Counted from the stretch's first letter, positions 21,814 to 44,539 are shown. The stretch: 47,157 nucleotides of DNA from Akkermansia muciniphila (GCA_945883955.1 CAMCYN010000002.1:1-47157); one strand, 5' to 3'. The notes: generated by a model not told the origin, from the sequence alone. Program-made: numbers and translations.

Positions 21814-21851
21814 ATGATTTCGCTGCCCTGAGCGGCGTTTTGTTCCCGCTT

Positions 21852-22658
21852 ATGAACCGCCTGCCCGCCGCTTTGCTTCTTACGCTATTGGCGGCGGGTG
21901 CTTTTCTTTTGGCCAGATCCTGGCCGTGGCTTCAGCCCGCTGGAGGTGGAATGCGGCCCCTGATGGTTTATTGTACGGCGAGCCTCAAGCGGCCGGTGGA
22001 AATGGCGGCCCTCCAGTATCGTGCTGAGACCGGAGTGGAGGTGCAGCTACAATACGGCGGTACGGCGACGCTGCTGAGCGCCATTCGAGCTGCCAAACGC
22101 GGCGACGTGTTTCTCGCCGCCGATAGTCTCGGAATTAAAGACGCCCGTAAATATGGGCTGCTCGGAGAGGTTATTCCGATGGTCCGACAACGCCCGGTTC
22201 TCGCTGTGGTCCGAGGTAATCCAAAGGGGCTGTGTGTTTTATCCGATCTGCGGCGCGAGGGTGTCCGACTGGCGCTGGCTAATCCCGAGACTGCGGCGAT
22301 TGGCCGCGTCACCCGCGCGCTGCTCGGTGCGGAGTACCCCCCGCTTGCAAGCCACGCTACGGTGACCAAACCGACGGTGAACGATATTGCCACCGACCTG
22401 ACCCTCGGGGCCGTGGATGCCGCGCTTGTTTGGGACTCCACCGTGGCCCAATTTCCCAAGCTCGAGGCCGTCCTGCTCGCTCCACTTTCTTTCCATGCCG
22501 AGGAGGCCAGTGCCGCAGTGCTATCGGGGAGCGGGAATTTGGAGGAGGCGTTGCGGTTCATCCGATTTTTGGCGATGCCGGAAAAGGGAGGACTGGTTTT
22601 TCAAAAAATGGGGTTCCATCCCGTTGGGGCTCCGTCCGGGTTGCACGCTCCCCAATAG
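21852..22658 (+). CDS. modA: Molybdate ABC transporter binding protein ModA
   Basis: Exported oxyanion-binding protein of 268 residues. The N-terminus is a signal or anchor (PAALLLTLLAAGAFLLA). The mature part has the ModA layout: LMVYCTASLKRPVEMAALQY, then the oxyanion segment VQLQYGGTATLLSAIRAAKRGDVFLAAD. The later part (RLALANPETAAIGRVTRALL, AALVWDST) is also typical. The ATG at 21852 is chosen over a TTG four codons earlier. The permease starts 8 nt downstream. Tungstate specificity cannot be excluded. Confidence 0.85.
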   Translation: MNRLPAALLLTLLAAGAFLLARSWPWLQPAGGGMRPLMVYCTASLKRPVEMAALQYRAETGVEVQLQYGGTATLLSAIRAAKRGDVFLAADSLGIKDARKYGLLGEVIPMVRQRPVLAVVRGNPKGLCVLSDLRREGVRLALANPETAAIGRVTRALLGAEYPPLASHATVTKPTVNDIATDLTLGAVDAALVWDSTVAQFPKLEAVLLAPLSFHAEEASAAVLSGSGNLEEALRFIRFLAMPEKGGLVFQKMGFHPVGAPSGLHAPQ

Positions 22659-22666
22659 TACCGGCC

Positions 22667-23473
22667 ATGAACTCCCACGCTGACGCCCCCGAGCGTTCCT
22701 GGAAAATCGATCCGCTCTGGATTGTCGCCGGGGTAATCACCGGCGCTTATCTGCTGTTTCTTCTGGGGATGATCGCCTCGGCGGCGACGTACAGTTCGCC
22801 CACGGAACTGTGGCGTGCGCTGCTGGCTCGGGAGATTCAGTACGCGTTCGGGTTAAGCCTGTGCACCTGTACGCTCTCGGCCCTGATTTCCCTGCTCATC
22901 GCTGTGCCCGTTGGTTATCTGCTCTCCCGGGGCCGTTTTGCCGGCAAAGCCTGGCTGGATGCCGCCCTGGACGTGCCTATTGTGTTGCCTCCGATGGTGG
23001 TGGGGCTGTGTTTACTTATCCTGTTCCAAACCGCGTTTGGCCGGATGATTGAGCGCTGGATTCCTTTCACCTATTCCGTAGCCGGCGTGGTGCTCGCCCA
23101 ATGTGTGATCGGCGCGGCGTTCGCCGTGCGTACTATGCGCGGCACTTTTGATCATCTTTCAGCCCGGCCCGAGGAAGTGGCCATGACGCTGGGGTGTACC
23201 CGGGCCACGGCCGTTTGGCGGGTGACCCTGCCCGCCGCCCGTCGGGGGATGTTTGCGGCGGCTACGATTGCCTGGGCGCGCAGCCTCGGGGAATTCGGGC
23301 CGGTGCTGGTGTTTGCGGGGGCGACCCGTTTGAAAACCGAGGTGCTGCCCACCACGGTTTGGCTGGAGCTAAGTGTGGGGAATCTGGAGGCCGCGATCGC
23401 GGTTAGCCTGCTTATGGTGGGATTGGCGGTATTGGTTCTAACCGGAGTCCGCGTTGCGGGAGAACGCCTGTGA
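22667..23473 (+). CDS. modB: Molybdate ABC transporter permease ModB
   Basis: Inner-membrane permease of 268 residues with about six helices. It has the ModB/CysT-type segments VPIVLPPMVVGLCLLILFQ and the EAA loop EEVAMTLGCTRATAVWRVTLPAARRG, followed by WARSLGEFGPVLVFAG, a very typical ModB stretch. The start at 22667 follows modA by 8 nt. A longer frame from 22430 would overlap modA and is rejected. The stop overlaps the modC GTG. Confidence 0.93.
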   Translation: MNSHADAPERSWKIDPLWIVAGVITGAYLLFLLGMIASAATYSSPTELWRALLAREIQYAFGLSLCTCTLSALISLLIAVPVGYLLSRGRFAGKAWLDAALDVPIVLPPMVVGLCLLILFQTAFGRMIERWIPFTYSVAGVVLAQCVIGAAFAVRTMRGTFDHLSARPEEVAMTLGCTRATAVWRVTLPAARRGMFAAATIAWARSLGEFGPVLVFAGATRLKTEVLPTTVWLELSVGNLEAAIAVSLLMVGLAVLVLTGVRVAGERL

Positions 23474-24144
23474 TCCGGCTCGAAAACGTGGCGTGGCAAG
23501 CGGGAGCGTTCGGGTTCTCCGACCTTAGCTTTACGGTTCCAGGCGGCTGTTACGGCGTTTTGACGGGTCGCACGGGGGAGGGAAAAACCACTCTCCTGGA
23601 ACTCATCTGCGGGTTGCGCCGGCCCCTGAGCGGACGGATCTGGGTGGGTGACCGGGAGGTGACGGGGCTGCCACCGGGGGCGCGCGGGTTAGGGTATGTG
23701 CCCCAGGATGGGGCGCTATTCCCGACGCTGAATGTGCGCGAGCAAATTGGATTTGCGCTGAGTATCCGCAAAAGCCCTCCCGACGGGATCAAGCGGCGGG
23801 TGGAAGAATTGGCGGCGGCGTTGGGGGTGACCCATCTGCTGGACCGGCGTCCGGACCGGCTTTCAGGCGGGGAAAGGCAGCGTGTGGCTCTTGGCCGCGC
23901 TCTGGCGGCGAGTCCCCGGGTGTTGCTGCTGGACGAACCGCTGTCGGCCTTGGACGACGATACACGCGAGCAACTGCTCGGGTTGCTCCAATGTATTCAC
24001 CGGGAGACCGCCGTGACGGTGCTCCACGTCACCCATCACCGGATGGAAGCGCAGCGTCTGGCCGGTTTGATGCTGAATTTGGAAGGCGGCCGGATCCGGG
24101 AGGGCCTGGTTGGGGGCGGGGGTCCGGCGTCCGAAAAGCTTTAA
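23470..24144 (+). CDS. modC: Molybdate-type ABC transporter ATPase ModC, short form
   Basis: ATPase of 224 residues starting with GTG at 23470 inside the end of modB (GTGA overlap). Walker A is LTGRTGEGKTTLL, the Q-loop GYVPQDGALFPTLNV, the signature LSGGERQRVALGRALA, and Walker B VLLLDEPLSALDD. The family form is usually about 350 residues, with a C-terminal Mop/TOBE domain that binds molybdate for regulation; here the protein stops after the nucleotide-binding domain. ModABC context supports oxyanion import. The missing domain suggests no trans-inhibition. Confidence 0.88.
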   Translation: MIRLENVAWQAGAFGFSDLSFTVPGGCYGVLTGRTGEGKTTLLELICGLRRPLSGRIWVGDREVTGLPPGARGLGYVPQDGALFPTLNVREQIGFALSIRKSPPDGIKRRVEELAAALGVTHLLDRRPDRLSGGERQRVALGRALAASPRVLLLDEPLSALDDDTREQLLGLLQCIHRETAVTVLHVTHHRMEAQRLAGLMLNLEGGRIREGLVGGGGPASEKL

Positions 24145-24209: not shown

Positions 24210-25232
24210 CTAGGGAGGGGTGGGTTCCACCCAGACGCATTTGCGTTGAAAATCAATGGTGATGCGATTCTTGCGGAAAGGGCCCCAGCCGAGCATGGCA
24301 TCCCGAGTAGTTGGGCTGGTGTCGTATTCGACGGGTGTGAGCCGGACGCCGCCGATGTGCGCCTCGCGTAAGGTGCCGATTTCTTCCATTTCCACGCCCC
24401 CGACGCCCATGGCGGCCCGTGTACTGCGGTGAGTTGAGGCCCAGGCGGAGGCGGGTAATTTTCCAAGCACCGTGGAGGGCAGCCGCAAAGTAGAGCCGCA
24501 TCCGGTGTCAAAGAATGCCGGGATCTTCTGGCCGGCGATGGTGACCTTGACCCAGAGACGTCCCCCGTGGGTTTGGAAGGGAAAGGAAACGGCACCTTTG
24601 GGCGGAATGAAGGACACTTTGTAACCGAGTTCCGCCTTTTTGGCGGGAGCGTCCAGGGTCACAAAGCTGAACAACTCCAGAAAAGGGAGGCCTAGCAGGT
24701 TGAGTGGCAGGCGGCGAACCGGGACACCTGCAAACTTGAACTGATAGGTTTGCAAAAGAACACCGGCAATCCCCTCGCCGAGTACTTTTTGTCCGGCACA
24801 TTCGAGCGATTCAAAACGTCCCAAAAGCAGTTCGGTGTTGCCGCCCACACCCGTGCCCTTGATCCGGGCGCCCTCGAGGACAGGGAGTCTGGCCTGGGCT
24901 GCCGATTCCGCATCCAGAAGCAGGGGGAAGGCGGCTCCGGTGTCCACGATCCAGGGCAGGCGGTGGGAGTGTAACTCGGCGGGGATGGTCGGGATACGGT
25001 GGGTCCCTTGCAGAGCCACCCGGAGGACAGTGCCGGGACGGAGCAGAACGGGGTATTCGAGCCGGAGCTGGCCTTTGGGGAATTCGTCGGCGCGGCGGTT
25101 CGAGGAGTGTTGTTGGAGACGGACGAGGGTGTTTGCCGAGACGGGGCGGACGTGGGGCGCGCAGCTGCAGAGGGCGCTGAGGGCAAGAAGGACGAGGAGT
25201 CCCAGGATCCGGCGCTTGGGTTTTGGGTTCAC
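24210..25232 (-). CDS. Two-lobed aspartic-protease-like lipoprotein
   Basis: A 340-residue exported protein. A lipoprotein-type signal is suggested by LCSC with Cys24 as the acylated residue. Two separate aspartic-protease motifs are visible: PWIVDTGAAFPLLL (catalytic Asp97) and PAFFDTGCGSTLRLP (Asp242). Each is followed by a glycine-rich turn (GTGVGGNTELL and AMGVGGVEMEE) as in retropepsin-fold domains. Two DTG lobes in one chain would allow an intramolecular pepsin-like active site. It is the last gene of a three-gene overlapping set of exported proteins. Substrate unknown. Confidence 0.75.
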   Translation of the reverse strand: MNPKPKRRILGLLVLLALSALCSCAPHVRPVSANTLVRLQQHSSNRRADEFPKGQLRLEYPVLLRPGTVLRVALQGTHRIPTIPAELHSHRLPWIVDTGAAFPLLLDAESAAQARLPVLEGARIKGTGVGGNTELLLGRFESLECAGQKVLGEGIAGVLLQTYQFKFAGVPVRRLPLNLLGLPFLELFSFVTLDAPAKKAELGYKVSFIPPKGAVSFPFQTHGGRLWVKVTIAGQKIPAFFDTGCGSTLRLPSTVLGKLPASAWASTHRSTRAAMGVGGVEMEEIGTLREAHIGGVRLTPVEYDTSPTTRDAMLGWGPFRKNRITIDFQRKCVWVEPTPP

Positions 25233-25870
25233 CGGAGAGGTTTGGTTTTGAGTTTGCGAACCAGGAGCATGCCCTGGAGGCCGAGGCCGAGTCCGGCGAA
25301 GCTCAGTGCGAGGATCGCTTTCCAGTTCCAGACCAGGGCGGTGGGACGTACCGGGAGCGCTATGGGATTGGACCCATCGCCGGCGAGTAACATTTTCCAG
25401 CCCGGCGCGACGGCCTCGGAATCCGGGCCGACGTGCCAGAAGATCACGGTTTGGGGGTTTCCTGCGGGGACTTCGAAGCGGAGGGGCGTTTCGCTGGCCC
25501 GCCAGGTCCAGGAAGCGGTGTAAAGTTCGGGTGTTTTCTCCCCGGCGGAGTGTTCGAGCGGAACGGGGGCGGGAGACTGGAAGCCGTCCCGGAGGTAGAC
25601 GGTGGGTTTACCGAGTTCGGTGATTTTCCAAGAGCGGCCGCCTGGAAGGTGTACCCGCAGGGAATCGCCGAGGGCGGCAGCGGGGTTGGGGGTGTTTTTG
25701 AGGTGGGGGTTGGCGGCCAGATCGGCGGTGATTTCGAGAGTCACCTCTGCGCTCGGGTGCAGAACCAAGCGTGCAAGCAACAGGTCACCAGAGTGCGCGA
25801 AAGCAAAAGGGGGAGCCAATACGGCTCCCCCGATAACGGTGAGGATCGAGATCTTCAGGAATCGGGTCAT
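25229..25870 (-). CDS. Exported, C-terminally anchored protein with mature N-terminal His
   Basis: A 213-residue protein of unknown family. A signal peptide ends at PPFAFA, after which the mature chain would begin HSGDLLLARLVLHP. A beta-rich periplasmic domain follows, containing several further His residues. One transmembrane helix near the C-terminus (WNWKAILALSFAGLGLGLQG) ends in a basic tail. The start at 25870 overlaps the upstream stop (ATGA), and its stop overlaps the downstream start, so it is tightly coupled to both neighbours. A histidine brace as in CopC-like copper proteins is possible but speculative. Confidence 0.65.
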   Translation of the reverse strand: MTRFLKISILTVIGGAVLAPPFAFAHSGDLLLARLVLHPSAEVTLEITADLAANPHLKNTPNPAAALGDSLRVHLPGGRSWKITELGKPTVYLRDGFQSPAPVPLEHSAGEKTPELYTASWTWRASETPLRFEVPAGNPQTVIFWHVGPDSEAVAPGWKMLLAGDGSNPIALPVRPTALVWNWKAILALSFAGLGLGLQGMLLVRKLKTKPLR

Positions 25871-27120
25871 TTCCGATTCCAACGTAACACACGTCCGAAC
25901 TTGTTCCACTCGGTCTCAAGAATATTGCCCTTGGAATCGAAAGTAATTCCATGTGGCGAGGTGACGAGATCATTGCGCCAGTCGGCCGGGGCGACTCCCG
26001 GAGTGTTGGTTTGGCCGGGGGTATCGTTGGTGCCCAGAGCGGCCACCATGGTGCCTTGCTTGTCCCAGACGGAAACGCGCCCGGCAATTTCCGCTATACA
26101 CACATAATCCCCATGGAATGAGGCGGAGCTGGGGTTGCGCAGTCCGGTGGCAATAACTCCGAGCAGCTCGCCCTCCAGACTGGCGTGCATGATACGTTTG
26201 TTACCGCGGTCACACAGGAACACACGGGCGGGTTCAAACCGGGTGTCGATGTGCACTTTGTGGCAGTTGGCCAGCTTGAAGGGCTCGACTGGACCGCCGA
26301 ACTGTTTCTTGAAGTTGCCTTTGCTATCGAAAACAAAGATCCACGAGGTTCCGTAACCGTCCACCACGTAGATATCGCCGTTGGGCGCGGCGTCGGCGCT
26401 GGTGAGTGCAAGTCCTTTGCGGGCCTCGGAACTACCTTCGGTCAGAGCTAGCTTGCCGTCTTTGGTGGCGATGGCGCTTTTGGCGATCGTCTGGGGTTTT
26501 CCTCCCACGAGTAATGTGACTTCGGTGTCGGTTTGTTCGGGATTGATCCCTTCCATCTTTTTGCCGTCTGCGAGCAGAATGGTTGCCTTCCTGGCGATAT
26601 CCGCCTTGGCGACTTTGAGGGTTTCGCCGTTTTCCTGCGTCAGCGAAATCGAATCGCCGTCGGTGATTGGAGTATGGCCGCTGATTGTTTTTCCACTCTT
26701 GAGACTCAGGGTGATGCGGTCGGCGATGGCGGCCGGGAACGAGGTCTTGGGAATCTCGAGTACAATCTGGCCGTCGAGGGTGGCTTTGATGGCTTTTTGC
26801 TGCCCGAGCACTGCGGCGAAGATGAACTCGCCATCGGCCTGTTTGCGGATGGAGAAGCCGTGGAGGGTGCCGGGGAGCGGGAGGTTGCGGAGGTGTTTGC
26901 CTTCGGGAGAGTAGACCTGCACGCCGCCCTCCTGGCCTTCGACGCTGACGTAGATTTTACCGGTGGAATCGACCTGGATTTCACCATGGCCGTTTCCGAT
27001 GGTTTCTAGGCCGGTTGGCGGAGTGATGAAATTTGGGGTAAATTCGTAGCGGACTTCGGCGTGGGCCAAAGTGGCACTCACTAAAACGGTGGCGAACAGG
27101 GCGGAAAAACGTGGGCTCAT
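25867..27120 (-). CDS. Exported NHL-type beta-propeller with a nested duplicated domain
   Basis: A 417-residue secreted protein with signal peptide (cleavage near TLAHAEV). Propeller repeats are visible on both sides: residues 45-125 (GEIQVDSTGKIYVSV, GVQVYSPEGKHLRNL) and 235-415 (DIYVVDGYGTSWIFVFDSKGNF, SPHGITFDSKGNILE). Between them, residues 134-222 hold two similar units of about 43 residues (ITLSLKSGKTISGHT...VAKADIA and ATILLADGKKMEGIN...IAKSAIA). These resemble the small beta-barrel at the C-terminus of PVC-type dehydrogenases. It is the first of three overlapping genes. Role unknown. Confidence 0.7.
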   Translation of the reverse strand: MSPRFSALFATVLVSATLAHAEVRYEFTPNFITPPTGLETIGNGHGEIQVDSTGKIYVSVEGQEGGVQVYSPEGKHLRNLPLPGTLHGFSIRKQADGEFIFAAVLGQQKAIKATLDGQIVLEIPKTSFPAAIADRITLSLKSGKTISGHTPITDGDSISLTQENGETLKVAKADIARKATILLADGKKMEGINPEQTDTEVTLLVGGKPQTIAKSAIATKDGKLALTEGSSEARKGLALTSADAAPNGDIYVVDGYGTSWIFVFDSKGNFKKQFGGPVEPFKLANCHKVHIDTRFEPARVFLCDRGNKRIMHASLEGELLGVIATGLRNPSSASFHGDYVCIAEIAGRVSVWDKQGTMVAALGTNDTPGQTNTPGVAPADWRNDLVTSPHGITFDSKGNILETEWNKFGRVLRWNRK

Positions 27121-27230: not shown

Positions 27231-27263
27231 AAAAGAAAAGCCCGCAGGGTGAGTGCGGGCTTT
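27231..27263 (-). terminator. Terminator of infC
   Basis: AAGCCCGCA and TGCGGGCTT form a 9-bp stem with a 7-nt loop. On the minus strand the stem is followed by TTCTTTTTCCC, a T-rich tract. It lies directly after the infC stop codon, so infC ends here and is not joined to downstream ribosomal-protein genes. Confidence 0.85.
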
Positions 27264-28170: not shown

Positions 28171-31100
28171 ATGCAGGTTTCCCCCGTTCTTTCGTCCGCG
28201 CTGCTTCTGTTGGGATTGGCTTCAGTGACCCTCGCCGAGCCTCTCCCCAAATCCAAGCCTGCCACGCCCAAACTGCTGCCTCCCCCCGATCAGATACTCA
28301 AAGGCGCCGCCATCGCTCCGGGGTTGAAAATCGATCTCTGGGCCGCTGAACCGCTCCTCTCCAATCCCGTCGCCTTCGCCTTTGACGGACAGGGCCGCGC
28401 CTGGGTGGCTGAAACCAACCGGCGCAAGTCCTCCATGCTCGATATCCGCAGTTTCTTACGCTGGATTCCCGACAGCCTGGCTTTTCGCTCCGTGGAGGAT
28501 CGGATCGCATTTCTCAAAAAAGTCCTCCCCGAAGGCGATCCAAACGGCCCCAAAGGCATGCGCGACCTCAACGGCGACGGAGCGGTCGACTGGCATGATC
28601 TGGAGGTCGAATCCGAAGCCGTCCGCCTGGTCGAGGACTCCAAAGGTAGCGGTGTAGCCGACACCGCCCGGATCGTCGCCCAAGGCTTTGCCTCGCTTGG
28701 AACGGGTATAGGCGCTGGAATTGTCACCCGAAACGGCGAAGCCTGGTATGTTTGCGCCCCGGACGTCTGGCGTTTGCGCGAAGACGGCACCCGGGAGCCG
28801 ATCCTGCACGGGCTCGGGGTTCATATCGCCTACAGCGGGCACGATTGCCATGGCGCAAAGCTGGGCCCGGATGGTCGCCTGTATTTCAGCGTCGCGGATT
28901 GCAGTGCCCGGATCGAGGTGGCTGGACGGGTTCTGGCGCCTCCGGCTTGTGGAGCGGTTTTCCGCTGCTGGCCCGACGGCTCGGAGCCTGAGCTGTACGC
29001 AATCGGTCTTAGAAATCCGCAGTCCCTCGTTTTTAACGAATTGGGCGACCTTTTTACCGGGGATAATAACGCAGATGGTGGAGACAAGGCGCGCTGGATC
29101 CATGTGGTCGAGGGGGCCGATTATGGCTGGCGGATCGGGTATCAATTCCTCAAGACCCCCAAGCTCGGCGTCTGGAACTCCGAAGGGCTCTGGACCATGG
29201 AATCCGCCCAAAGCGCTCCGGCTATCCTGCCGCCGGTGACTTATATCGGACACGGCCCGGCCGGGGTGGCGTACTATCCGGGCACCGGAATGCCCAAGGA
29301 GTATGAGGGGGCGTTTTTTATGGCGGATTTCCCCGGAGGCGTTCGCAGCCTCAAGCTCGAACCGCAGGGTGCCTCGTACCGGGCGCTGCTGCCGGCCCAA
29401 GTGTTGATGGACAATTCCTCCAAACAAATGGAGGGCAAGCTGGCCTGGAACCTCAACGTGCCCGATATCGCCTTCGGTCCCGGCGGCGGTCTCTATCTGC
29501 TGGACTGCATCGACTGGATTCCCGGCTACGACAAATTTAACAAGGGACGCATCTTCCGGGTGCACTCCGAAGCGGCCGATGCCGACCCGATCGTGGCTGA
29601 AACCCGCGCCATTTTGGCGGAGGGTTTCTCGGCCCGGCCCGTCGAAGCCCTTGCACAGTTCCTGGCTCATCCCGACATCCGGGTCCGTACCGAGGCCCAG
29701 TGGACGCTGGCCGAACGCGGTCCGGACGGACTGGTCGCCTTCGAGTGGGTGCTAAAGAAAATGTCCGGCCTTGCCCGGGTGCACTCCGTGTGGGGGATCG
29801 GGCAATTGGCGCGAAAATCGCCTGCGGCCGTGGAGCGGTTGCGCAAGTTGTTGAAGGATTCCGATGCCGAAGTCCGCGCACAGGTTTGTAAGGTGCTCGG
29901 AGAAAACGGATCCGACGCAGACGCACCCCGGATCGCGGCCATGTTGGAGGATGACGCGCCCCGGGTCCGCTTTTTCGCGATTCAGGCACTGCGCCGGCTC
30001 GGCTCGGAGGCGCAGGTGCCGGTGCTGCTCAAGACGCAGGAGGGGGAGGATCAAAAGGATCCTTTCCTTCGCAATGCGGCTCTCAAAACCCTCTCCGTAT
30101 TGGCTAAACCCGAGACTTTAAGCGGGCTGCAGTCCCATCCTTCGACCTCCGTCCGTTTGGCGGCGGTGCTGGCGCTGCGGCTTCAGTCGGCACCGGGAGT
30201 GTCGGTTTTTCTACAGGACACCGCGCCCGAGGTGCGCCTCGAGGCGGCCCGTGCCATTTACGATGCGCCGGGGGAATCGGAATTGCCGGCGCTGGCCGCC
30301 TTCGAACCGAGTTCGGGCGAATCGACCGCGTTGGTTCAGCGAATCCAGGCGGCGCGCCATCGTCTGGGGGGGAAGGCGAATGCGGAGCGTTTATTGGGTG
30401 AGGCCATGGATCGTTCCCTTTCCGAGTCCGCCCGGATCCAGGCTCTGGTGTTTCTACGGCAGTGGAAGCCGGAGGACGGGCGGGATGTTTTCCTGGGGCG
30501 GTGGTGGCCGATTGCCGAAAGCCGGGATGCCGAGCCGGTACAGGCGCTTTTGAGCGAGCACATGCCCGAATTATTGCAGGATGAACTTGCGGCGGTACGT
30601 CTGACGGCGGTGGAGATGGTGGGGGCGTTTAGGGTGAAGGCCGTTTTGCCTCTGGTCGAAAAGGTAGTTCGCGACCGGAAATCTTCGGGGGCGCTTCGGG
30701 CAGCGGCGCTGGTGGCACTGTCGGAGATTCAGACGGAAGGTTTCGGGGAAACGCTGGAGGCTGTTTTACGGGAAAACGACAGGACCCTTCTGGAGGCAGC
30801 CAAAAAGCTGCTCGGCAAATTGTCCCCGACCAAGGCCAGTCTGTTGTGCGGGCAGTTGCTCGATTCAGGTAATCTCTCGGATGGACAAAGCGCCCTGCCG
30901 ACTCTGGTTCAGCTTAAAACCCCCGAGGGAGACGCGATTCTGGAGCGTTGGATGGACAAACTCAAAGCCGACAAGGTCGCTCCGGGTCTAGTTTTGGATC
31001 TGCTGGAAGCGGCCGCCAAACGCGGGACACCAGCCTTAAAAACAAGGCTGCTCGAATTTAACAAAGCCCGCCGTTCGGGGGATAAACTCGCCGAATACCG

Positions 31101-31554
31101 CGAATGTCTCGAAGGCGGTAACGCCAAGGCCGGTCTGGAAGTGTTCCGGGAGAAGGATGAGGTCGGTTGTTACCGGTGTCATAAGGCGGCGGGAAATGGC
31201 GGGGATGTCGGCCCGAATATGGATGGCATCGGGGCCCGTTACTCCCGGGAGTATCTGCTGCGGGCCATTGTTTATCCCAACGCCGATTATGCCCCGGGTT
31301 TTGAGAACCTGCTCGTCACCGTCAAAGACGGCTCGCTGGTCGCCGGAATGCTGGAGTCGGAGAGGGCCGGGAAATTGGTTTTGACGATGCTTGGCACGGC
31401 GCAACAACAGGAAATCCCACTGGAGAATGTCGTAAAACGCGACCGGTTGCCGTCCCCGATGCCGGAGGGGTTAGCGGCTTTGTTAACCAAACGCGAATTA
31501 CGGGACGTCGTGGAGTTTCTCTTTCGCCAGAAAGGAGCCCCCAGGACCGAGTGA
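28171..31554 (+). CDS. PVC-type secreted dehydrogenase with HEAT repeats and haem c domain
   Basis: A large exported protein (1127 residues) of a type peculiar to Planctomycetes and Verrucomicrobia. The signal peptide ends near VTLAEPL. Residues 40-465 form a glucose/sorbosone-dehydrogenase-like propeller (AFDGQGRAWVAETN, DGRLYFSVAD, LFTGDNNADGGDKARW, YGWRIGYQF). Residues about 480-970 are HEAT-like repeats. A cytochrome c motif CYRCH sits at Cys1000-His1004. The C-terminal barrel is NLLVTVKDGSLVAGMLE. It is thought to oxidise a sugar or alcohol and pass electrons to the haem. Substrate unknown. Confidence 0.9.
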   Translation: MQVSPVLSSALLLLGLASVTLAEPLPKSKPATPKLLPPPDQILKGAAIAPGLKIDLWAAEPLLSNPVAFAFDGQGRAWVAETNRRKSSMLDIRSFLRWIPDSLAFRSVEDRIAFLKKVLPEGDPNGPKGMRDLNGDGAVDWHDLEVESEAVRLVEDSKGSGVADTARIVAQGFASLGTGIGAGIVTRNGEAWYVCAPDVWRLREDGTREPILHGLGVHIAYSGHDCHGAKLGPDGRLYFSVADCSARIEVAGRVLAPPACGAVFRCWPDGSEPELYAIGLRNPQSLVFNELGDLFTGDNNADGGDKARWIHVVEGADYGWRIGYQFLKTPKLGVWNSEGLWTMESAQSAPAILPPVTYIGHGPAGVAYYPGTGMPKEYEGAFFMADFPGGVRSLKLEPQGASYRALLPAQVLMDNSSKQMEGKLAWNLNVPDIAFGPGGGLYLLDCIDWIPGYDKFNKGRIFRVHSEAADADPIVAETRAILAEGFSARPVEALAQFLAHPDIRVRTEAQWTLAERGPDGLVAFEWVLKKMSGLARVHSVWGIGQLARKSPAAVERLRKLLKDSDAEVRAQVCKVLGENGSDADAPRIAAMLEDDAPRVRFFAIQALRRLGSEAQVPVLLKTQEGEDQKDPFLRNAALKTLSVLAKPETLSGLQSHPSTSVRLAAVLALRLQSAPGVSVFLQDTAPEVRLEAARAIYDAPGESELPALAAFEPSSGESTALVQRIQAARHRLGGKANAERLLGEAMDRSLSESARIQALVFLRQWKPEDGRDVFLGRWWPIAESRDAEPVQALLSEHMPELLQDELAAVRLTAVEMVGAFRVKAVLPLVEKVVRDRKSSGALRAAALVALSEIQTEGFGETLEAVLRENDRTLLEAAKKLLGKLSPTKASLLCGQLLDSGNLSDGQSALPTLVQLKTPEGDAILERWMDKLKADKVAPGLVLDLLEAAAKRGTPALKTRLLEFNKARRSGDKLAEYRECLEGGNAKAGLEVFREKDEVGCYRCHKAAGNGGDVGPNMDGIGARYSREYLLRAIVYPNADYAPGFENLLVTVKDGSLVAGMLESERAGKLVLTMLGTAQQQEIPLENVVKRDRLPSPMPEGLAALLTKRELRDVVEFLFRQKGAPRTE

Positions 31555-37481: not shown

Positions 37482-37485
37482 ATGG

Positions 37486-37559
37486 TCGGGCTGGAGGGAT
37501 TCGAACCCTCGGCCTCTTCGACCCGAACGAAGCGCTCTACCAAGCTGAGCTACAGCCCG
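37486..37559 (-). tRNA. tRNA-Pro(CGG)
   Basis: A 74-nt cloverleaf on the minus strand. Acceptor CGGGCTG pairs with CAGCCCG, and the discriminator is A. The D arm is GCTC...GAGC. The anticodon arm CTTCG-TTCGGGT-CGAAG gives anticodon CGG. The T arm is GAGGG-TTCGAAT-CCCTC. The 3' CCA is not encoded. It follows tRNA-Gly by 33 nt in the same direction. Confidence 0.96.
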
Positions 37560-37570
37560 AATTCTATGAC

Positions 37571-37590
37571 ACTCTGTTGAGTAACAGAGT
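37571..37590. other. Hairpin between the two tRNAs
   Basis: ACTCTGTT and AACAGAGT form a perfect 8-bp stem with a 4-nt loop in the 33-nt spacer. There is no T run. It is probably a processing feature of a tRNA-Gly/tRNA-Pro co-transcript. Confidence 0.5.
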
Positions 37591-37592
37591 GG

Positions 37593-37664
37593 AGCGGGTG
37601 ACGCGAGTCGAACGCGCGACGTCTTCCTTGGCAAGGAAGTGCTCTACCACTGAGCTACACCCGC
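37593..37664 (-). tRNA. tRNA-Gly(GCC)
   Basis: A 72-nt cloverleaf on the minus strand. Acceptor GCGGGTG pairs with CACCCGC, and the discriminator is T. The D arm is GCTC-AGTGGTA-GAGC. The anticodon arm CTTCC-TTGCCAA-GGAAG gives anticodon GCC. The T stem GCGCG/CGCGT has one G-T pair. CCA is not encoded. It is the first gene of the tRNA pair. Confidence 0.96.
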
Positions 37665-43316: not shown

Positions 43317-44384
43317 TTAGTGGAAAGCGAAGTTGACCGAGACGGTGCCGAAAATCTGGGGATGCTTTTGGCCGCGGAATTCTTCGGTCCTGTAAACCAG
43401 GGCATAGGCGAACTTGGTGTTACCGCGGTTGGCGGCGACGCCCACGCTCAGATCGGCCACCAGCCACTTCCGATCGACCGAGTGACTGTTTCCGAAGGTG
43501 TTTCCATCCAGAAAGATATTGTGGGCGACAAATCGACCGTCGGCCCGGCCGAAAAAGTAGAGGCCGTTGCCCGCCCCGGCACTCAGTCCCGACTCGGAAC
43601 CTTCCACCGGAGTGGAGGTGGAGGAGGCCGGATCGATCGTAGCGGTGCCGAAGTCATCTGGCAGATTGAAGCCAACCCGTAACTCCCCGCCAAAATCGGC
43701 GTAGCTTCGGACATTGCCCACCGCCAGTCCGGCGTGGGGGAGGAGTTCCCAGTTGAGCCCTTTGCGCCGGATGCGCTCGGGCCAGCGCCAGTCGCGTGAA
43801 TAGACGAGTAGGGCTCCGAGTTCGTTGTGGAGCTGATTGTCCCACCCCTTGGCGCGTTCGTCGCCGAGTAAATCGTGGACCCTGCTTTGAGTCTTTTGGG
43901 CGTAAGACCATGAGCCAACCACACCCACATTGAGTGCGAGCGTGTTTCGTACTTTGGCGGTTTTCCAAACCACGCCTAATCCCAGATAAAGCCATCCGGC
44001 GTAGGGGCGGTCGTCCGGGATTAACACCCGCGACTGGGTGTCCACCGGAGTGTAAATATTCTGGCCGAGTGTGAAGAGCAGGTTCTTCTGGTAGTCGGTC
44101 TGATTGATATAAGGCAGTGCGTCAAAGAGGCGCAGAAAGGGTTTGGCGTAAGGGCTGTCGCTGAATTTTTCGAGATCCGGCGAGCTCCATCCGAGCTTTA
44201 CTCCGCTGGTGTAATAACGGTCCGTGCCGACAAAAGAGTCGTTTTCAATGTAGAGGCTGAAGGCCCCGTGCGCGTCGGGGTTCCGGTCGGAGGCCGCCTG
44301 CGTGCTCAAGGAGCCGAGGGCGTTGATCCAGAAAATAGAGGGGAGAATGCGCCTGAACAGGAGGCCGCGTAGGGAAAGAGACAT
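43317..44384 (-). CDS. LpxR-like outer-membrane lipid A deacylase (DUF2219)
   Basis: A 355-residue predicted outer-membrane barrel. The N-terminal part is signal-like (ILPSIFWINALGSLSTQA). The DUF2219/LpxR signature is present: LYIENDSFVGTDRYYTSGVKLGW and DDRPYAGWLYLGLG, then GWDNQLHNELGALLVYSRDW. The N-D pair in ENDSF matches an active-site part of LpxR. The C-terminus ends in barrel strand VSVNFAFH. LpxR removes the 3'-acyloxyacyl chain of lipid A. The start at 44384 gives the proper signal peptide; a longer frame to 44534 is unlikely. Confidence 0.82.
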   Translation of the reverse strand: MSLSLRGLLFRRILPSIFWINALGSLSTQAASDRNPDAHGAFSLYIENDSFVGTDRYYTSGVKLGWSSPDLEKFSDSPYAKPFLRLFDALPYINQTDYQKNLLFTLGQNIYTPVDTQSRVLIPDDRPYAGWLYLGLGVVWKTAKVRNTLALNVGVVGSWSYAQKTQSRVHDLLGDERAKGWDNQLHNELGALLVYSRDWRWPERIRRKGLNWELLPHAGLAVGNVRSYADFGGELRVGFNLPDDFGTATIDPASSTSTPVEGSESGLSAGAGNGLYFFGRADGRFVAHNIFLDGNTFGNSHSVDRKWLVADLSVGVAANRGNTKFAYALVYRTEEFRGQKHPQIFGTVSVNFAFH

Positions 44385-44539
44385 AGAGCGTGGATGGCCT
44401 CGGCCGGGGGTGGGTTTCGTTCCCACCCTCTCTATTTCGCGGCAGGGGGTGTTTCCGGTCGCCTTGTCTGGGCCGGAGTCATGGTTGGGAGTGGGCGACC
44501 GGCGGAAAATCTGCTGAGGTCTCGTGGCCCTCACAATTT

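Follow-up and report, generated by a model that had tools for sequence, protein, structure and literature searches.

A secreted six-bladed propeller and a membrane-anchored protein, encoded one directly after the other in the 47,157-nucleotide stretch of DNA analyzed here (the window), form a conserved two-gene unit, and their co-inheritance has been demonstrated. Gene order, coupling, co-inheritance and residue conservation were all observed directly in the window and its relatives. Based on predicted models of the two products, the pair may represent a metal-dependent periplasmic PAL-like enzyme, namely the propeller, together with a dedicated membrane-anchored metal-binding partner, a reading to which we give an even chance. 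A third gene in the same cluster encodes an aspartic-protease-like lipoprotein and is an accessory of a single genus, not a core member. Each half of the pair resembles something known; a literature search found no paper on the pairing of propeller and anchored protein or on a free-standing anchored Ang-1-like protein.

The genes and the junctions between them are as follows.

25867..27120, minus strand: propeller gene, secreted six-bladed NHL propeller (417 aa), which opens the conserved pair
25229..25870, minus strand: anchored gene, 213 aa, with a signal peptide, a predicted Ang-1-like beta sandwich and a single C-terminal membrane helix
24210..25232, minus strand: lipoprotein gene, DTG aspartic-protease-like, two lobes, outside the conserved core
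25867..25870, minus strand: ATGA overlap of the propeller stop and the anchored-protein start
25229..25232, minus strand: GTGA overlap of the anchored-protein stop and the lipoprotein start
27237..27263, minus strand: terminator-like hairpin between infC (upstream) and the propeller gene

Both junctions are 4 nt overlaps with exact coordinates and frames, and hydrophobic leaders, read by eye, were recognized at the N-terminus of all three products, in agreement with the original prediction that three genes for exported proteins are tightly coupled here. Among 77 propeller/anchored junctions, the one in the window included, the overlap is exactly 4 nt in 50 and 1 nt in six, and thus the ATGA overlap of these two genes is not due to chance. 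No shared upstream regulator motif was found, and the upstream regions across the window's genus align only at scattered bases. A molybdate-type ABC transporter (substrate-binding protein, permease and ATPase) is encoded at 21840-24144, convergent with the three-gene set. Elsewhere, the window harbors a 1127-aa PVC-type heme-binding CxxCH protein with HEAT repeats (28171-31554), a homologue of which (38% identity) is encoded a few kb from the propeller gene in locus L025, as well as a Peripla_BP_5-type periplasmic binding protein (1495-2760; PF13433, E 1e-130), a member of the LpxR outer-membrane protein family (43317-44534; PF09982, E 1e-100), and tRNA-Gly and tRNA-Pro genes (37483-37664).

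The anchored gene was found immediately 3' of the propeller gene in 76 of the 80 named Verrucomicrobiota loci, with one past an insertion. An ORF like a REP-associated transposase splits the two genes at L077:6609-7322, leaving a gap of 872 nt. Three loci (L088, L097 and L098) have a propeller gene with no adjacent anchored gene; for the L088 contig, which belongs to genome G286, the anchored gene exists elsewhere in the genome, so that both proteins are present on separate contigs. Of 388 genomes sampled phylum-wide, seven encode the anchored protein, and propeller matches with E<1e-90 are found in precisely these seven. Among 57 close relatives, 14 encode the anchored protein, and an orthologous propeller (E<1e-110) is likewise present in these 14 and no others. 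The genomes counted are not independent observations, because the pair-bearing ones come from only a handful of genera. The pairwise distances within the propeller and anchored families show a correlation of 0.87, a value that shared ancestry alone is also expected to give. In the window's genus, the order infC, propeller, anchored protein and lipoprotein is standard where contigs span the region. In the family's other genera, and also in the Verrucomicrobiales and the Opitutae, only the propeller and anchored genes stay together, and the flanking genes vary. The pair also exists in a cultured species, Brevifollis gellanilyticus (L045). No fusion of the propeller and the anchored protein was seen, and PAL-like propellers with the same set of site residues are also found where the anchored protein is missing. 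The first contig scan, which used the anchored protein as the lone query, gave no match.

The following features were recognized in the anchored protein.

25793..25795, minus strand: His26, predicted first mature residue, conserved in 77/77
25721..25723, minus strand: Asp50 (mature residue 25), D/E/N/Q in 77/77, candidate second ligand of a brace
25436..25438, minus strand: Trp145, conserved in 77/77
25376..25378, minus strand: Asp165, D or E in 77/77
25244..25324, minus strand: predicted C-terminal membrane helix (residues 183-209), after which comes a basic tail

The 77 relatives compared have a mean identity of 31%. Cleavage is predicted, with the site placed by eye, between AFA and HSGD, and the probable mature N-terminal His proposed originally is borne out by the position of the invariant His26 at the end of the leader. 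Searches of Pfam, NCBIfam and PDB sequences with the anchored protein gave no usable match, and no Pfam family at E<=1; a match to the HHHH-motif entry of NCBIfam, as well as helicase and nucleosidase hits, were judged to be chance. The AlphaFold model of the protein has a pLDDT of 85, with values below 50 for residues 22-26, including His26. A Foldseek search with this model found nothing at E<=0.001. Its top structural match is 9GCE, a Cu-bound Ang-1 domain (Z 9.2 over 131 residues, with a high rmsd of 6.5), which is set apart from the other matches to this predicted model by the second-look aligner only, and which is followed by the zinc proteins ZrgA and PA4063 (Z 6.4-7.6) and by pentameric-channel domains (5.5-6.1). 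In comparison with the N-terminal domains of HupE proteins from the same family, the anchored protein gave a profile score of 33.7 and an hhalign probability of 55%. None of 200 column shuffles scored above 19.7, but removal of the first 8 mature residues abolishes this profile signal. Judging from these models and alignments, the anchored protein probably works like a monohistidine-brace metal protein and is neither an anglerase permease nor a DUF1775 protein. Membership in DUF1775 was rejected, as there was no PF07987 match and the hhalign probability to YcnI was 0.2%, and YcnI, which is not among the structural matches listed for the model, was kept as an analogy.

The propeller contains the following residues and insert.

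26986..26988, minus strand: His45 (GHGE), kept by the orthologues and by most paralogues, with no counterpart in PAL
26860..26862, minus strand: His87, aligned with His585 of PAL (presumed zinc ligand)
26353..26355, minus strand: Tyr256 (DGY), aligned with PAL Tyr654
26260..26262, minus strand: His287, aligned with His690 of PAL (presumed zinc ligand)
26206..26208, minus strand: Arg305 (DRGN), aligned with PAL Arg706
25951..25953, minus strand: His390 (SPHG), aligned with His786 of PAL (presumed zinc ligand)
26416..26733, minus strand: insert, propeller residues 130-235, predicted to form two small beta domains

The model of the propeller is a six-bladed NHL fold with a pLDDT of 93.7. Its best PDB matches in the second-look alignment, tied at Z 29-31, were the NHL domains of Thin and of TRIM proteins (Z 29-30.6 for the latter) and PAL (3FVZ, Z 29.1). 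PAL is singled out among these tied folds by the residues that align with its site; the profile match between the two proteins has an E-value of 7.4e-4, with about 18% identity. The PAL sequence used is the 3FVZ chain letter for letter, and its spacing gives the published residue numbers. We take His585, His690 and His786 of PAL to be the zinc ligands, and Tyr654 and Arg706 to be catalytic. All five positions are kept in the orthologues and in the sampled distant paralogues, one of which is truncated before His87; Tyr256 and Arg305 are invariant, and the pairing of His390 with His786 comes from one of two alignments, the other being shifted by about 6 residues there. PAL Arg533, which presumably contacts the substrate carboxylate, is not kept, the aligned column being variable with E61 in the window, and thus the substrate of the propeller probably differs from that of PAL. 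Full-length versions of the insert were seen in the window's genus and locus L024; it is partial in L025 and L026, and absent elsewhere. It weakly matches NF047433, the LA_0442/LA_0875 N-terminal domain (E 4.5e-10). A Ca lactonase of the SGL/DrSOD type was considered for the propeller and disfavored, as the conserved propeller residues aligned to the PAL site are His and not Glu/Asn/Asp.

None of the three proteins has an assigned role, as had been noted originally, and to our knowledge few jobs are known for N-terminal-His copper proteins that have neither a permease nor an oxygenase partner. Coupled synthesis, co-inheritance even where the two genes are unlinked, and conservation of the putative metal sites on both proteins together favor the view of an enzyme with its partner. 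The propeller would then most likely be a periplasmic, transition-metal-dependent PAL-like enzyme, either a lyase or a hydrolase. The anchored protein, tethered to the inner membrane, would bind a metal ion through a monohistidine brace carried by an Ang-1-like beta sandwich; this metal would most likely be Cu(II), possibly Ni or Zn. It may hand the metal to the propeller, hold the propeller at the membrane, or both, and translational coupling would keep the two proteins in step. Both folds are taken from predicted models, and we infer the metal, the chemistry, the interaction and the location. A coupled pair that is co-inherited across several orders predicts that the anchored protein serves the propeller, and this prediction bears on the bacterial PAL-like propellers described here, to which no function has been assigned.

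By analogy, the pair could even be a bacterial counterpart of peptidylglycine alpha-amidating monooxygenase with an unrelated copper partner. The anchored copper protein would oxidize a C-H next to nitrogen and the propeller would cleave the hydroxylated product, and if this were true, envelope peptide amides would be formed or glyoxylate-like products released. We consider such a counterpart very improbable, because the related Ang-1 domain has no substantial oxidase activity (PMC12537917). As candidates for a partner PHM, weak Cu2_monoox_C matches were found in 14 of 17 genomes, only pair-bearing genomes being counted. The window's genome encodes a protein with such a weak, PHM-like match at G000 contig C92:9509-9811.

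The lipoprotein has three features that bear on its identity.

25161..25163, minus strand: lipobox Cys24, invariant in relatives
24936..24944, minus strand: first DTG (Asp97)
24501..24509, minus strand: second DTG (Asp242)

The leader of the lipoprotein, with LCSC, is slightly atypical, and its relatives have the canonical LLxGC. Asp97 and Asp242 are invariant in the eight full-length relatives, and the protein matches PF13650 at E 5.5e-14, so the description of a two-DTG lipoprotein holds. Its family was found in the window's genus, in genome G002 and, as a divergent version, in genus g5, which lacks the anchored protein. In G002 (L140:7677-9443), infC and the lipoprotein gene are adjacent, and the propeller and anchored genes are both absent; although this genome is 82% complete, the contig is unbroken across infC and the lipoprotein gene, and thus G002 lacks the pair as a whole, and the lipoprotein can be separated from it. 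Relatives carrying the genes separately had been named in advance as the observation that would speak against a three-gene set, and the co-occurrence search found them for the lipoprotein gene alone; the propeller and anchored genes therefore stand as a conserved unit, and the third gene, which was not seen near the pair outside the window's genus, does not belong to it.

This distribution also weighs against the idea of a three-gene proteolysis module, in which the DTG lipoprotein would cleave envelope substrates recognized by the propeller. Three coupled genes for exported proteins, in the same order in all pair-carrying members of the genus with spanning contigs, are what such a module would look like, but a gene that was not seen near the pair outside the genus, and that exists beside infC without the pair and in g5 without the anchored protein, makes it extremely improbable. 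Of the two functions suggested in the original prediction, proteolysis is thus set aside, the protease-like gene being a lineage-specific neighbor, and metal handling is retained. The form of metal handling could be one of capture, with a free-standing anglerase passing Cu or Ni to a HupE/UreJ permease coded elsewhere and the propeller acting as a periplasmic metal store or shuttle instead of an enzyme. In favor of capture, the anchored protein finds its top fold match in the HupE/UreJ anglerase domain, and several histidines of the propeller are conserved. One or more HupE_UreJ_2 genes above the cut-off were found in each of the six genomes with the pair that were tested from beyond the window's family, and the genome of the window itself carries two. 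However, HupE_UreJ_2 is widespread also in family members without the pair, no permease is linked to the pair in the loci examined, and the PAL-like Tyr and Arg kept beside the histidines suggest catalysis over storage, so we regard capture as unlikely. The two HupE_UreJ_2 genes of the window's genome lie in L118 (G000 contig C86) and on G000 contig C101, and the exported N-terminal domains of the family's HupE_UreJ_2 proteins start with His and fall into two or more types, among them HVSDTS... and HPIPDIPV....

The propeller might, on the other hand, have no catalytic function and be a membrane-anchored platform for protein-protein contact in the envelope, with the N-terminal His and the other histidines being structural. 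The TRIM NHL binding domains share its fold equally, and the propellers of BamB (an envelope scaffold) and PknD (a sensor) are among the matches. A scaffold would nevertheless leave the five PAL site residues, retained through orthologues and far paralogues, to be explained, together with a predicted mature N-terminal His that is kept in 77/77 anchored proteins despite their 31% mean identity, and we find it decidedly doubtful.

The enzyme and partner proposed here can be compared with several known systems. In clan AA retropepsin-like proteins (PF13650), as in each lobe of the neighboring lipoprotein, a DTG is combined with a hydrophobic-hydrophobic-Gly motif; the lipoprotein differs in having both lobes on one chain. 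DrSOD (PDB 9M58), in which a Cu/Zn-SOD and a propeller lactonase are fused (PMC12362111), likewise combines a copper protein with a six-bladed propeller, which matches the present one at Z 26. However, its Ca site consists of Glu/Asn/Asp, and its SOD domain is unrelated to the anchored protein. YcnI is exported, has a C-terminal membrane helix and binds copper at a His-acid-Trp site (PMC8424229), and YcnI/DUF1775 exchanges Cu(II) with a membrane partner (PMC8424229, PMC12154828). The anchored protein resembles it in the signal peptide, the predicted mature N-terminal His and the C-terminal membrane helix, and the spacing from the His is similar (23 residues in YcnI versus 24 to the acid, and 110 versus 119 to the conserved Trp), but the anchored gene has no adjacent CopC/CopD-type partner gene.

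The best structural counterpart of the anchored protein is the Ang-1 domain of HupE/UreJ-2 (9GCE), with which its model shares a beta sandwich whose second strand is followed by helices, as well as export, a conserved predicted mature N-terminal His and a candidate O-donor ligand downstream. RbAng-1a holds Cu via His1 and Asn41, and Ang-1, which is reported mainly from Pseudomonadota, has Kd values of 74 nM (Cu) and 220 nM (Ni) (PMC12537917). The anchored protein differs in that one C-terminal membrane helix takes the place of the attached HupE/UreJ-2 (PF13795) permease, its partner is a PAL-like propeller, its host phylum is Verrucomicrobiota and the sequence link is weak. As for the propeller, it differs from PAL (3FVZ) in being bacterial, in having no PHM domain on its chain, in Gly391 at the position of Asp787 and in the extra His45. 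In short, it shares with PAL the six-bladed NHL propeller and residues aligned with all of His585, His690, His786, Tyr654 and Arg706.
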